Source: Methanothermococcus thermolithotrophicus DSM 2095
GTDB taxonomy: Archaea > AGJL01 > Methanococci > Methanococcales > Methanococcaceae
Assembly (NCBI RefSeq): GCF_946463545.1
Contig: NZ_OX296583.1
Location: 434,001-498,000, forward strand
Direction: 5' to 3'
Length of the DNA stretch: 64,000 bases
The translations under genes were made by a program, and so were the position numbers. The notes below the pieces were generated by a model. It was not told the DNA's origin. It ran no database searches and saw only the letters and a list, made by a program, of their open reading frames with translations. This document shows, in pieces, positions 5,221-61,953 of this stretch. How positions within the stretch are numbered: position 1 is the stretch's first letter; every line of letters starts with the position of its first letter.

Positions 5221-5277
5221 AATCGGAGCGAACGAAGTGAGCGAAGAGCTACAAAAACCGTTAGGTTTTTGTTTAAT
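5221..5277. repeat. Palindromic element downstream of mtd
   Basis: Begins AATCGGAGC, the reverse complement of the usual tail GCTCCGATT, continues with GCGAACGAAGTGAGCGAAGAGCT and ends in the perfect hairpin ACAAAAACC-gtta-GGTTTTTGT (5251-5272). It is 40 bases past the mtd stop, so it could also serve as an RNA 3'-end structure. Confidence 0.7.
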
Positions 5278-5297
5278 CTCTTTTTATTTCTTTTTTT

Positions 5298-15788: not shown

Positions 15789-16268
15789 ATGTATGTGCTA
15801 AATGAAGATGTAAAGGACATACTTAAAAAGCCCTTTGGAAAAGTATATAAAGAACTACCGCCCATAAAAGGAAGAGTTGTTTCTATAGGTGATGTAACTA
15901 CAAAAAACCTTTTATCAAAGAATATAGTACCTAATTTATCAATTTTTGATTTAAAAACTAAAAGAACTATTAATGTTAACATAACCCATAATTTTAAAAG
16001 AGTCTTTGAAGTTAACAATCCTCCCGGATGTATAACTGATGAAGCCATCGAAAAAATTAAATACCTTTCCACTATAAATGATAAGGATATTGCTTTGATA
16101 GTAAAGGGAGAAGAGGATTTACTTACCATTCCTGTTATTAAATATTTTCCCGAAAATACTATGGTCCTTTATGGACAGCCTGATGAAGGCGTAGTAATAT
16201 TGAAAATCACAAAAGACCTGAAACATAAAATAGACGAAATACTTAAAATGATGGAAACGATTGAGTGA
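15789..16268 (+). CDS. GTP-dependent dephospho-CoA kinase (DUF359)
   Basis: Last step of archaeal coenzyme A synthesis, phosphorylating dephospho-CoA with GTP. The 159 residues contain family blocks GDVTTKNLL, the [11 protein letters not shown] acidic motif and [13 protein letters not shown] lies upstream of the ATG. The final codons (ATT GAG TGA) belong to a palindromic element: the stop codon lies in the left arm of the hairpin GTGAAAACC-ttc-GGTTTTCAC (16265-16285), so the element sets the protein's C-terminus. Confidence 0.88.
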
Positions 16269-16373
16269 AAACCTTCGGTTTTCACAGCTCTCCGTTTCAC
16301 TACGATTGAGTGAAAATTCCTTTGGAATTTTCCGACTATTTGATTGATGTTACGAAACCTTTAAAAAGGTTTC
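16265..16373. repeat. Three palindromic elements inside the rpoE1-rps27ae cluster
   Basis: Hairpins GTGAAAACC-ttc-GGTTTTCAC (16265-16285, followed by AGCTCTCCG), GAAAATTCC-ttt-GGAATTTTC (16312-16332) and GAAACCTT-taaa-AAGGTTTC (16354-16373). The first two are each preceded by ACGATTGAGTGAAAA, so they look like tandem units. They separate the DUF359 gene from rps24e in an otherwise compact operon. Confidence 0.8.
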
Positions 16374-27198: not shown

Positions 27199-27693
27199 AT
27201 GGCTACAACCTATGAGTTAAAAATATGCGGAATTGAACAAAATCCTTCGGATTTTGTAGCCCGAAGCAAAGCTCCGGAAGTTCAACACGTTGGGTTCAGG
27301 GATAGGATAGAAGACATAGGGAGAGGTTTGGGCGTTGATGGAGTGGTTTATAACTACGAGGATGGAACTGTTAGAATATTGGCAAACTTTGATGATGAGG
27401 AACTAAAAGAATTTTTTAAAAAAAGTATAAAGTTTTTGGAAAAAAAAGATAATTTAATTAAAATAGAGGAGATTGAAGAAAAAGAGCTAAATACATTTAT
27501 TGAGTTTCCAAGTGGAATAAATAGGATTTCAGCAGATGACTTAATAGAATTAAACAAAAAATTAGATGAAGGAGTTAAATACATTAAAATGATTTTTGGA
27601 GTTTTGGAAGAGGTTAAAAAAGGACAGGATGCAATAATAAAAGGGCAAGATGAAATAAAAGAAATTCTTAAAAAGATTGAACAAAAACTTTAA
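27199..27693 (+). CDS. Acylphosphatase-domain protein with palindromic-element insertion and C-terminal coiled coil
   Basis: Residues 1-100 match the acylphosphatase fold: YELKICG, then [21 protein letters not shown] with the phosphate-binding arginine Arg34, and [10 protein letters not shown]. In the family GxVQGVGFR is contiguous; here about 15 residues (Glu13-Glu27) intervene, encoded by a palindromic element (27235-27279). The C-terminal third ([20 protein letters not shown] ... [10 protein letters not shown]) is a coiled coil not found in plain acylphosphatases. GGTGGTGTT precedes the ATG. The gene lies between the intact enolase end and its decayed copy, so it appears inserted. Whether the loop insertion leaves activity is unknown. 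Confidence 0.8.
27235..27279 (+). repeat. Palindromic element inserted in frame in the acylphosphatase-like gene
   Basis: Perfect hairpin ACAAAATCC-ttc-GGATTTTGT (27237-27257), then AGC, then a second imperfect hairpin CCGAAGC-aaa-GCTCCGG (27261-27277), all enclosed by TTGAAC/GTTCAA (27233-27285). It adds 15 codons, reading [15 protein letters not shown], without breaking the frame. Confidence 0.85.
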
Positions 27694-44289: not shown

Positions 44290-45288
44290 ATGAAAGTAAC
44301 TGTTTTATCTGGAGGAACTGGGACCCCAAAATTAATACAGGGTTTAAAAAACATATTACATGAAGAAGACATTTCGGTAATAGTAAATACTGGAGAAGAT
44401 ACTTGGGTAGGGGACCTATATATTTCTCCCGATGTGGATACTGTTCTCTACACATTTTCAGATCTTATAAATGAGGAAACATGGTATGGAATAAAAAATG
44501 ATACTTTTCACTGCCATGAACAGTTGAAAAAACTGGAGTATGATGAATTTCTTAGAATAGGGGACAGAGATAGAGCTCTTAAAATGCATAAAACCCATCT
44601 CATTAAAAATGGTTATAAGTTATCAGAGATCATAGAGATGGAGAGAAAATTATTAGGTATTAAGGCGAAAATATACCCAATGACAGATGATCATGTAGAA
44701 ACCAAAATCTTAGCATTGGACAAATCCGAAGATAAACAAAAATCACAAAGTGATTTTTGTAGCTCTCCGATTGAACAAAACCTTCAGTTTTGTAGCTCTC
44801 CGATTCTCCTAAAATTTCATGATTTCTGGATTAAAAGAAGAGGTAATGTTAATGTTTTAGATGTTATCTATGAGAATTCAAATTATGCAGGAGTTGTCGA
44901 AGCTGCATTAAATGATATCGAAAATAGTGATTTTGTTTTGATAGGTCCGTCTAATCCCATAACTTCCATAGGACCAATTTTAAGTATTAAAGATATTAAA
45001 AAGGCACTTATGGACAAAACTGTTTTTGTCGTTTCTCCAATAGTTGGGGAAAGTGCCATTAGCGGTCCAGCAGGGATGTTGATGAATGCAAAGGGGTATG
45101 ATGTGGATGTTGTTGGAGTTTATGAATTTTATAAAGACATAGTAGATACTATGATCATAGACAATATCGATAAAAATAAAAAAGATAGAATAGGGTGTGA
45201 AGTCATAACCACAAATACTATTATGAAGGGGTTAAATGATAAAGTAAATTTGGCAAAAGATATTATAAAATGCTTTGATGAAATATAA
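44290..45288 (+). CDS. cofD: 2-phospho-L-lactate transferase with palindromic-element insertion
   Basis: Joins the lactyl-phosphate moiety to Fo in coenzyme F420 synthesis. 332 residues against about 305-311 in relatives. Conserved: VLSGGTGTPKLIQGL, VNTGEDTWVGDLYISPDVDTVLY, RIGDRDRALKMHKT, IYPMTDDHVETKI, HDFWIKRRG, IGPSNPITSIGPIL and SPIVGESAISGPAG. Between VETKI and HDFW lie about 26 extra residues (146-172) that include the peptide FCSSPI twice; they are encoded by two tandem palindromic elements. The catalytic segments on both sides are intact, so the enzyme, needed for methanogenesis, is presumably active. Confidence 0.94.
   Translation: MKVTVLSGGTGTPKLIQGLKNILHEEDISVIVNTGEDTWVGDLYISPDVDTVLYTFSDLINEETWYGIKNDTFHCHEQLKKLEYDEFLRIGDRDRALKMHKTHLIKNGYKLSEIIEMERKLLGIKAKIYPMTDDHVETKILALDKSEDKQKSQSDFCSSPIEQNLQFCSSPILLKFHDFWIKRRGNVNVLDVIYENSNYAGVVEAALNDIENSDFVLIGPSNPITSIGPILSIKDIKKALMDKTVFVVSPIVGESAISGPAGMLMNAKGYDVDVVGVYEFYKDIVDTMIIDNIDKNKKDRIGCEVITTNTIMKGLNDKVNLAKDIIKCFDEI
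44736..44805 (+). repeat. Two tandem palindromic elements in frame inside cofD
   Basis: Unit 1: perfect hairpin ACAAAAATCAC-aaa-GTGATTTTTGT (44736-44760) followed by AGCTCTCCGATTG. Unit 2: ACAAAAC-cttca-GTTTTGT (44775-44793) followed by AGCTCTCCGATT (44794-44805). The shared TTTTGTAGCTCTCCGATT occurs twice. Unit 2 starts with ATTGAACAAAA, read Ile-Glu-Gln-Asn, the same bases and phase as in the acylphosphatase-like gene. Confidence 0.9.
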
Positions 45289-51436: not shown

Positions 51437-51616
51437 GTGAAAATTCTAAAAGAATTTTCACAATATCGAGCTCACGTAGTGAGCGAAGAACTATGAAAAT
51501 CCATTATTGGATTTTCATTTAATCCCTTCACTCACGAATGGAGTAAAGTAAAAATGTAATAGTTGAGTAAAATCTTTACGGTTTCAACCCTCACTTAGGT
51601 GGGTGTTGAAAGAATT
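51437..51616. repeat. Array of palindromic elements upstream of prs
   Basis: GAAAATTCT-aaa-AGAATTTTC (51439-51459), CTCAC-gta-GTGAG (51472-51484), ATGAAAATCC-attatt-GGATTTTCAT (51493-51518), CACTC-acgaat-GGAGTG and a last weaker stem TCAACCCTCAC-ttag-GTGGGTGTTGA. GAGCTC and GAAGAACT linkers recur between stems as in the array at 57221. The array fills most of the 329-base gap 51383-51711; the last 90 bases are an AT-rich promoter region. Confidence 0.75.
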
Positions 51617-57220: not shown

Positions 57221-57476
57221 TCGGAGCTCGAAGGAGCGTTATGAATTAGACAAAAACCGAAGGTTTTTGTTACTCGCTTACTTCGTAAGCGAAATCATAG
57301 ATTTTCAAAACCCTTAAAGGGAAGACTTAAAACCTTCGGTTTCGAAGCGAAGCGAAGAGCTGCAAAATCCACAAGGATTTTGCTTAATTAAGTTTTCCTT
57401 ACTTTCGAAGAACTACGAAAACGAAGGTTTTCGTTCAATCGTTCGGAAATGTTGCAAAACTCGAAAGAGTTTTGTT
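57221..57476. repeat. Large array of seven palindromic elements
   Basis: Starts ATCGGAGCTC right after the receptor stop. Hairpins: ACAAAAACC-gaa-GGTTTTTGT (57250-57270), CGCTTAC-ttc-GTAAGCG, AACCC-ttaaa-GGG, AAACC-ttc-GGTTT (57329-57342), GCAAAATCC-acaa-GGATTTTGC (57362-57383), CGAAAAC-gaag-GTTTTCG, and GCAAAACTC-gaaa-GAGTTTTG (57454-57474). Linkers GAAGAGCT and GAAGAACTACGAAA recur. The densest cluster in the window. Confidence 0.8.
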
Positions 57477-57598
57477 CAATAAATTTTAATCCTTTCTTTT
57501 CTTTTTTAGATTAAATAACAGTAATTTAAGAACATTTGTTTTTACAAAGGATTTCATTTCATTTCTTAAAATTATTTAAATACTATAGTTATTTATCC

Positions 57599-58029: not shown

Positions 58030-59871
58030 GTGAAAGTGCTCAGAAATATATCTGTAAAGACCAAGATTTTATCCACCATAGCAATTTTGGTGCTTATTAT
58101 TATGGGGGTATCCTCAACAGTAATAATGGTTCATAAAAGTATGGAGCATGATGGTCATGTGATCAACCTTGCAGGAAAACAGAGAATGTTAATCCAAAAG
58201 ATGACAAAAGAGGCTTTTGTATATAAGGTTGAGCGTGAAGAAAATGATAGAAAAGATTTAAAAGAAACTTCAGAGCTATTCGACAAAACATTAAATGGCT
58301 TGATATCAGGTAGTGAGGAATTGGGTATCCCTCCTGCTCCCGATAAAGTCAAGCCACAACTTCTTAAAGTAAAGCAACTATGGGATCCATACTATGAGAA
58401 AATAAAAATAATATATTCAAAAAATCCTGATGATCCAGAGGTTGAAGAAGCATTAAACTACCTGGATGAACACGATGCGGAACTATTAACTGAAATGAAC
58501 AAAGCAGTAATGTTGTATAGCAACCTATACGATGAAAAACTTAAATTTGCAAATAATGTAGCAATGGCATCCACGGTATTGGCATTATTGTTCAGTATCG
58601 TCTCAATAATCATTATAAAGAAAACAGTTTTAGATTATATCGATGAGCTCAGAAGGATATTGGCCGAATTAGCCAACAAGAACTATGATGTAAAACCTGA
58701 AATGGAATTTAACAAGGATGAAATTGGAGAACTATTCAACAATGTCAAACAGATAATCAACAACTTAAATGAAGATATGAGAAAACAGGAAGAGGATAAA
58801 AAAGCATTGGCTAAAACATTTAAAGAACTTACCATAACTATGCAGAAAGTTGCCGAAGGAGATCTAACAGTGAGAATGGATGAAAGTGGAAAACAGAACA
58901 GACTCCAAAAAACCATTAATAAAACATTAGACAACATGTCAAACCTAATAAATGAACTAAAAGCTCAAATAATCGACTTAAACAAAGAGATAAAAACACT
59001 AAGGGAAGAAATTGAAAGGGCAAAAGAAACCTCAGATCAGGTTGCAGATGCAGCTTCACAGGTTGCCACAGCTGCAACAGATCAGGCAAACAAACTACAG
59101 GACATTTCGCAGGACTTGGAGAACACCGGAGAAGTTGTTAATGATACATACAACGCAGCTATTGATGCGGTAAATTCAGCTGAAGAGATAGAAGAAAACT
59201 CAAAAACTGGTGTACAGAAGGTTGAAAATGCAATAGACACAATGCAGAGAATCACAAACGTAATAGATGACTTAGGAAGGGCAATTCAAGAGCTCGGAGA
59301 CGAGAGCAAGAAAATCAACGAAGTTACTGTATTGATTAAAGATATTGCTGAACAAACTGGATTACTGGCTTTAAACGCTTCTATTGAAGCTGCAAGAGCT
59401 GGAGAAGCTGGAAAAGGATTTGCAGTTGTTGCAAGTGAAATTAAATCACTGGCAGAAGAGATTGGTAAATCTGTGGATGATATTGCCAAAACCATTACAG
59501 GAATACATAAAAGAGTTGAAAAAACAATCGACCTCGGCCTTACAGGTAAGGACGAAGTGGATAAAGGAGTCGTGGCAATAGATGAGGTAAATAATGCATT
59601 TATGAAAATCAAAGAAAGTGTAGATAAAGCAATGATAAAAATAAATGCTATTAAAGAAGACTCACAGCAAGCTTCAGAGAACGTACAGCAGGCATTAAGC
59701 AATGTTCAAGATATTGCTTCAATATCTGAGGAATTTGCAGCTACTGCGGAAGAACTAACCGCTAGTGCTGAAGAACAGAATAGAATCATGGACGAGATAA
59801 GCAAAGCTACTGATAAAATAGCAGACGTTTCAGATAGAGTATCTGAATCAGCCGATAGATTTAACGTTTAA
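58030..59871 (+). CDS. Methyl-accepting chemotaxis protein with PilJ-like sensor (paralogue 1)
   Basis: 613 residues. TM1 about 9-32, extracellular four-helix PilJ/NarX-type sensor 35-178 with the signature [21 protein letters not shown]2 about 180-200, HAMP modules and the signalling coiled coil with [21 protein letters not shown] start after GGAGGGGT. Residues 1-190 and 310-613 are almost identical to the next receptor, while 190-310 differ and instead resemble the dCache receptor ([33 protein letters not shown]), a mosaic pointing to gene conversion. Confidence 0.94.
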
Positions 59872-60111: not shown

Positions 60112-61953
60112 GTGAAAGTGCTCAGAAATATATCTGTAAAGACCAAGATTTTATCCACCATAGCAATTTTGGTGCTTATTATTATGGGGGTATCCTCAAC
60201 AGTAATAATAGTTCATGACAGCATGAAAGATGATGGACAGGTAATTAATCTTGCAGGAAAACAGAGAATGTTAATCCAAAAGATGACAAAAGAGGCTTTT
60301 GTATATAAGGTTGAGCGTGAAGAAAATGATAGAAAAGATTTAAAAGAAACTTCAGAGCTATTCGACAAAACATTAAATGGCTTGATATCAGGTAGTGAGG
60401 AATTGGGTATCCCTCCTGCTCCCGATAAAGTCAAGCCACAACTTCTTAAAGTAAAGCAACTATGGGATCCATACTATGAGAAAATAAAAATAATATATTC
60501 AAAAAATCCTGATGATCCAGAGGTTGAAGAAGCATTAAACTACCTGGATGAACACGATGCGGAACTATTAACTGAAATGAACAAAGCAGTAATGTTGTAT
60601 AGCAACCTATACGATGAAAAACTTAAATTTGCAAATAATGTAGCAATGGCATCCACGGTATTGGCATTATTGGTCGGAATTGTTTCAATGATTTTTATAA
60701 AAAGAACTGTTTTAGACCAACTTAAAGACCTTGAAAGAATGTCAAGCGAGTTTGCCAATGGAAATTATAATATAAAACGAAAAGTAAACTTCAACGACGA
60801 TGAAATTGGGAAAATATTTTCCAGTATCAAAAAAATATACCATAACTTTAAGGAAGATATGGAGAAACAAGAAGAGAATAACAAATTATTGGGAAAAACA
60901 TTTACCGAGATCTTTGATGTCATGAATAAAGTCGCTGAAGGGGACTTTACTGTTAGATTGGATGAAAGTGGAGAACGAAACAGGCTTCAAAAAACCATCA
61001 ACAAAACCATAGATAACATCAATAACTTAATAAAAGACCTAAAATCTCAAATAATCGACTTAAACAAAGAGATAAAAACACTAAGGGAAGAAATTGAAAG
61101 GGCAAAAGAAACCTCAGATCAGGTTGCAGATGCAGCTTCACAGGTTGCCACAGCTGCAACAGATCAGGCAAACAAACTACAGGACATTTCGCAGGACTTG
61201 GAGAACACTGGAGAGGTTGTTGAGGGTACGTACAATGCAGCTATTGATGCAGTAAATTCAGCAAATGAGATTGAAGAAAACTCAGGAATTGGTGTACAGA
61301 AGGTTGAAAATGCAATAGACACAATGCAGAGAATCACTAACGTAATAGACGACTTAGGAAAAGCTATTCAAGAGCTCGGAGACGAGAGCAAGAAAATCAA
61401 CGAAGTTACAGTTTTAATTAAGGATATTGCTGAACAAACTGGATTACTGGCTTTAAACGCTTCTATTGAAGCTGCAAGAGCTGGAGAAGCTGGAAAAGGA
61501 TTTGCAGTTGTTGCAAGTGAAATTAAATCACTGGCAGAAGAGATTGGTAAATCTGTGGATGATATTGCCAAAACCATTACAGGAATACAGGGCAAAGTTG
61601 AAAAAACTATTGATTTGGGGTTAACTGGTAAAGATGAAGTCGACAAAGGAGTTATAGCCATAGATGAGGTAAACAACGCGTTTATGAAAATTAAAGAAAG
61701 TGTAGATAAGGCCGCTGAAAAGATAAATGCAATAAAAGAAGGTGCAAAACAGGCGTCAGAGAACGTACAACAGGCATTAAATAACGTTCAAGATATTGCT
61801 TCAATATCTGAAGAGTTTGCTGCAACTGCTGAAGAACTAACCGCTAGTGCAGAAGAACAGAATAGAATCATGGATGAAATAAGCAAAGCTACCGAGGAAA
61901 TAGCAAAAGTTTCAGATAGGGTGGCTAAATCAGCCAGTAGATTTAAAGTTTAA
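60112..61953 (+). CDS. Methyl-accepting chemotaxis protein with PilJ-like sensor (paralogue 2)
   Basis: 613 residues, same architecture as the preceding receptor: TM1, PilJ-like sensor, TM2, HAMP, signalling domain. The sensor differs at only a few residues near 40-47, so both probably detect the same or very similar ligands. The HAMP region ([20 protein letters not shown] ... [20 protein letters not shown]) is the divergent part and may tune output. GTG start after GGAGGGGT. Tandem duplication with its own copy of the promoter. Confidence 0.94.

Follow-up and report, generated by a model that had tools for sequence, protein, structure and literature searches.

The single-copy cofD gene of Methanothermococcus thermolithotrophicus carries, in frame, two tandem palindromic units belonging to a repeat family dispersed through the genome. 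Very probably, this is a mostly intergenic repeat, similar to the Rickettsia palindromic elements and the bacterial REPs, which survives in genes only where the reading frame and the protein fold tolerate it and is then translated. The window, i.e., the whole stretch of 64,000 nucleotides that was analysed, corresponds to positions 434001-498000 of the single-contig genome of 1,706,496 bases, whose McrA is identical to chain A of 5N1Q from M. thermolithotrophicus over 553 residues; the features of the window are collected in Table 1.

Table 1. Repeat units, family copies and carrier genes in the window (positions are those of the window).
Feature	Position	Strand	Basis
cofD, 2-phospho-L-lactate transferase, 332 aa	44290..45288	+	TIGR01819, 384 bits; both units in frame
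Palindromic unit 1: hairpin 44736-44760 + tail AGCTCTCCGATT	44736..44772	+	inverted repeat, fold, model R1 match
Unit 1 arms ACAAAAATCAC / GTGATTTTTGT	44736-44746 / 44750-44760		11 bp, 3-nt loop
Unit 1 tail AGCTCTCCGATT	44761-44772
Palindromic unit 2: GA + hairpin 44775-44793 + tail AGCTCTCCGATT	44773..44805	+	direct repeat; model R1, 41 bits
Unit 2 arms ACAAAAC / GTTTTGT	44775-44781 / 44787-44793		7 bp, 5-nt loop
Unit 2 tail AGCTCTCCGATT	44794-44805
Coding segment of the cofD insert, residues 150-172, QKSQSDFCSSPIEQNLQFCSSPI	44737..44805	+	protein alignments: orthologues without the segment
Family copy in acylphosphatase-like gene (27199-27693)	27231..27279	+	R1, 37.5 bits; PF00708; orthologues without it
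Full-length family copy, intergenic	5221..5278	-	R1, 66.1 bits
Full-length family copy, intergenic, touching the 3' end of ORF 15789-16268	16259..16307	+	R1, 59.9 bits
Partial family copy, intergenic	51481..51524	-	R1, 29.6 bits
Four-copy family cluster, intergenic (57244-57288 +, 57340-57389 -, 57405-57440 -, 57441-57481 -)	57244..57481	both strands	covariance model R1 search

From our analysis of cofD, the original prediction of two tandem palindromic elements within the open frame, with the peptide FCSSPI repeated, was borne out. Each unit is a hairpin followed by the same 12-nt tail, the two are arranged head-to-tail at a spacing of 33 nt (11 codons) and read QKSQSDFCSSPI-EQNLQFCSSPI in frame, and the ORF runs without interruption across the whole insert. 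The match of the protein to TIGR01819 lies above the cut-off of 257 bits and is split into two stretches flanking the insert. As single-stranded DNA the segment folds at -15.4 kcal/mol against -4.8 kcal/mol in shuffles (z -5.9), and as RNA it also folds better than shuffles (z -3.5). The tail AGCTCTCCGATT has three occurrences in the 1.7-Mb genome and none in a reversed control, while TTTTGTAGCTCTCCGATT, with up to 3 mismatches, has 29 against one in the control; thus, the cofD units are not a product of chance. A second intact cofD had been named as a finding that would speak against the prediction, and none was found in the genome. The description of cofD as essential, however, calls for caution, given that Methanobrevibacter ruminantium reportedly survives the knock-out of cofD, with about half the biomass and about 2% of wild-type methane (PMC8163928).

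In CofD alignments with 29 relatives in one and six contigs in another (same family and order), the loop between VETKIL and LLKFHDFW is shorter in the aligned relatives, and the M. thermolithotrophicus protein is longer by the element. The extra residues had been put at about 26; the element codes for 23 (150-172), and the net gain over relatives is about 19-24. M. mazei CofD (3C3D), which is without the insert, aligns on both sides of it, the gap falling between residues 138 and 144 of the M. mazei protein. The AlphaFold model of CofD (mean pLDDT 89) has the same fold as 3C3D (TM 0.95), and its residues 147-168, flanked by strand 137-143 and strand 172-175, fall below pLDDT 50. By this confident fold prediction, the insert is a disordered loop joining two strands, in the place between the VETK and HDFW segments that had been anticipated for it. 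Two g3 relatives (L045, L046) have longer CofD loops of a sequence unrelated to the element, and therefore the site tolerates length change. In a HemC model from four sequences, of low confidence at a mean pLDDT of 62, the insert again lies between two strands. Searches of the PDB for element-bearing chains and for element peptides returned none, the short-peptide search being a weak one. Very probably, transcription and translation turn the cofD units into a disordered loop between strands, with the enzyme core unaltered; the peptide is presumably present in mature CofD, and CofD with the insert is probably active.

The covariance model R1, built from 28 copies, detected 95 copies of the repeat at E<0.001 in the whole genome, with individual matches spanning 33-95 nt. 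The unit of about 49 nt comprises a hairpin and a tail (consensus about ATTAAACAAAATCCTTCGGATTTTGTAGCTCTTCGCTTCGCTCCGATT) and has the ends ATTRAAC and CTCCGATT; in the cofD copies the tail is shortened. Tails fall into the classes CTCCGA (44), CACC (29) and others, and tandem pairs are recurrent. In alignment A3, 98.1% of the stem cells are paired against 78.3% in shuffled sequences, and stem changes are two-sided in 165 cells and one-sided in 7, with almost no G-U; these covariation counts are per sequence, from an alignment fitted to the model, and are a lead rather than proof. Because one-sided and G-U states are so scarce, the counts point to a palindrome that is maintained at the DNA level, and the two-sided changes suggest arm-to-arm copying. 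Most likely, we are dealing with a short palindromic repeat that is, or once was, mobile and would have spread through the M. thermolithotrophicus genome and, to a lesser extent, through several relatives, mainly between genes.

The copies are mostly intergenic, with about 16 of 103 examined copies inside genes where 83% of the window is coding, which is a strong depletion. At least 14 genes hold an in-frame copy, the sole cofD included, and the intragenic copies use both orientations and several frames. For 11 genes, orthologues (from up to three relatives) are without just the element, and the length of the net insert is divisible by 3 in every case; these genes are bioF, ygiQ, hemC, cobN, tfrB, an MBL-fold gene and the acylphosphatase, together with the AcsV/RACo-like gene (in tandem), a polyferredoxin gene, a methyltransferase gene and cofD, which carry two copies each. 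One copy each is also found in hel308, hef and the intein in a secretion-type ATPase, where the alignment is less clean, and CofG may carry a copy in an N-terminal extension whose start is uncertain. In the acylphosphatase-like gene, the net insertion of 15 aa lies between G and VQHVGFR, at the start of the expected phosphate-binding loop; relative G006 has several acylphosphatase paralogues without the element. A HepT-like ribonuclease gene (L019:1605-2069) has an in-frame copy between R and N of the apparent R-N-x-x-x-H catalytic motif and, judging from the sequence, its product may be inactive. As these two insertions are at or beside catalytic motifs, some carriers may be impaired.

Relatives carry up to 35 (G006), 28 (G015) and 23 (G004) family copies; genomes of family f2 have 0-10, and the seven g3 genomes have none. 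Relatives with in-frame copies are G006 (a carbamoyltransferase and a DUF447 protein), G009 (a glycosyltransferase) and G028 (a Hel308 intein). The hel308 gene with the same copy in the same place is found in G004, which belongs to a different genus, at 97% DNA identity over 1867 bases (L085, L215). Since CofD is merely about 61-72% identical to that of G004, the comparison of sequences indicates a recent transfer of the element-bearing hel308 between M. thermolithotrophicus and G004. Inteins were noted in the secretion-type ATPase and Hel308 (L014, L085, L201), with the palindromic copy inside the intein itself in L014 and in L201 of a relative.

The maintenance of an element-bearing hel308 in two genera, as well as the identical tail and FCSSPI in both cofD units, might be read as adaptive use, with the inserted peptides or hairpins kept for regulation, interaction, mRNA structure or stability. 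We consider this very improbable: copies are read in both orientations and in several frames, so that the peptide varies by gene, the segment is predicted to be disordered, and relatives manage without it.

Under the rule that at least 70 codons be open on each side of a copy, all 10 copies that qualified read through in frame (10/10 strict preservation), where about one third would be expected if insertion were frame-independent. Apparent broken genes at 958038 and 176257 are actually junctions of neighbouring genes, and another at 239246 is an antisense reading; this test, which is blind to genes decayed beyond 70 open codons, revealed no gene disrupted by a copy. Copy lengths are distributed evenly modulo 3 (34/39/30), and the idea that the repeat is built stop-free was rejected, since on average 2.67 of 6 frames are open and shuffles have 2.77; frame preservation therefore reflects selection on the host genes. 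Genic copies would persist only if the frame is kept and the fold accommodates the added residues. The earlier claim that important proteins can accommodate such elements in frame holds, for a single cofD with an intact frame and a predicted loop site, and generalises to 10 further genes.

Translation of the insert has to be weighed against its absence from the product through mRNA splicing, ribosome skipping or protein cutting. Ribosome skipping has a precedent in the byp hairpins found in the mitochondria of some yeasts, and stable RNA hairpins (z -3.5) and the recurrence of similar inserts across many genes would suit removal. We regard it as highly improbable, however, because a segment taken out before or during translation would be under less demand to keep the frame and to lack stops, and the intragenic copies do both although lengths in the family are even modulo 3. 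This strict preservation argues against ribosomal bypass as well as excision from the mRNA, which the original prediction had listed as counter-evidence to itself; as for an intein, the insert is far too short. Equally improbable is local growth of the cofD loop by slippage or template switching at a hairpin, for although the loop is length-variable (longer in L045 and L046) and two-sided stem changes without one-sided intermediates suggest copying of one arm onto the other, it cannot produce the shared consensus of the same sequence found about 100 times at unrelated sites, so that the dispersed family largely refutes it, even if it may explain the unit doubling within cofD.

The translated, dispersed repeat thus preferred invites comparison with the Rickettsia palindromic elements and Wolbachia palindromic repeats (Ogata et al. 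2000, 2005, as described in PMC10969869 and PMC3733652). As in Rickettsia, a palindromic repeat lies in frame in many unrelated, apparently functional genes (here 11) as well as between genes. The Rickettsia elements, however, are bacterial and about 150 bp long, whereas the archaeal unit is about 49 nt and is used in both orientations and several frames; their CGTC end tag (PMC3733652) is absent from the archaeal consensus, and sequence kinship between the two is not established. GTAG-tagged REPs are mobilised by RAYT (Y1) transposases, and some are inside bacterial genes (PMC3733652). The archaeal repeat shares with them a short hairpin in tandem and dispersed copies, mostly intergenic and some intragenic, with a foot that is often GTAG; it differs in a conserved tail past the hairpin and in a covarying foot pair, owing to which just 41 of 95 copies have GTAG. 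Moreover, no Y1 transposase (PF01797) was found in the M. thermolithotrophicus genome, with matches in 5 of 14 control genomes, and Y1 was set aside as the mobiliser, its loss being possible. Like the MITEs of archaea and bacteria (PMC10969869), the repeat is short, dispersed and without an enzyme of its own, but it has no terminal inverted repeats, its inverted repeat being internal, and no clear target-site duplication (flank agreement z <=2.6 over all shifts). No parent insertion sequence was identified; spread by a trans-acting enzyme that recognises the DNA hairpin appears plausible. In essence, outcome and anatomy match the Rickettsia elements and intragenic bacterial REPs, but the defining sequence features tested do not.

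In the open-access literature searched, mostly without subscription papers, we found no account of in-frame palindromic elements in archaea. A bolder and tentative reading, to which we give somewhat less than an even chance, is that of archaeal protein-coding palindromes, a Methanococcales hairpin repeat spread by non-Y1 means that in either orientation and several frames provides disordered segments for metabolic enzymes, with stems renewed by arm copying. In-frame palindromic repeats in functional genes were the earlier puzzle of Rickettsia; that a much shorter repeat, apparently unrelated to theirs, has the same outcome in a thermophilic archaeon which is free-living and can be cultivated points to a recurrent route from repeated DNA to protein segments. 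As M. thermolithotrophicus proteins have already been crystallised (McrA, 5N1Q), the fate of the residues is directly testable on CofD, TfrB, BioF and HemC.

Two further observations concern gene ends and neighbouring genes. The genes gatD, geranylgeranylglyceryl phosphate synthase and fdhD take their final 9-10 codons from copies at their 3' ends (L022, L026, L068). In the window, 58030-59871 and 60112-61953 are adjacent 613-aa ORFs with near-identical N-termini, apparently a tandem duplication.
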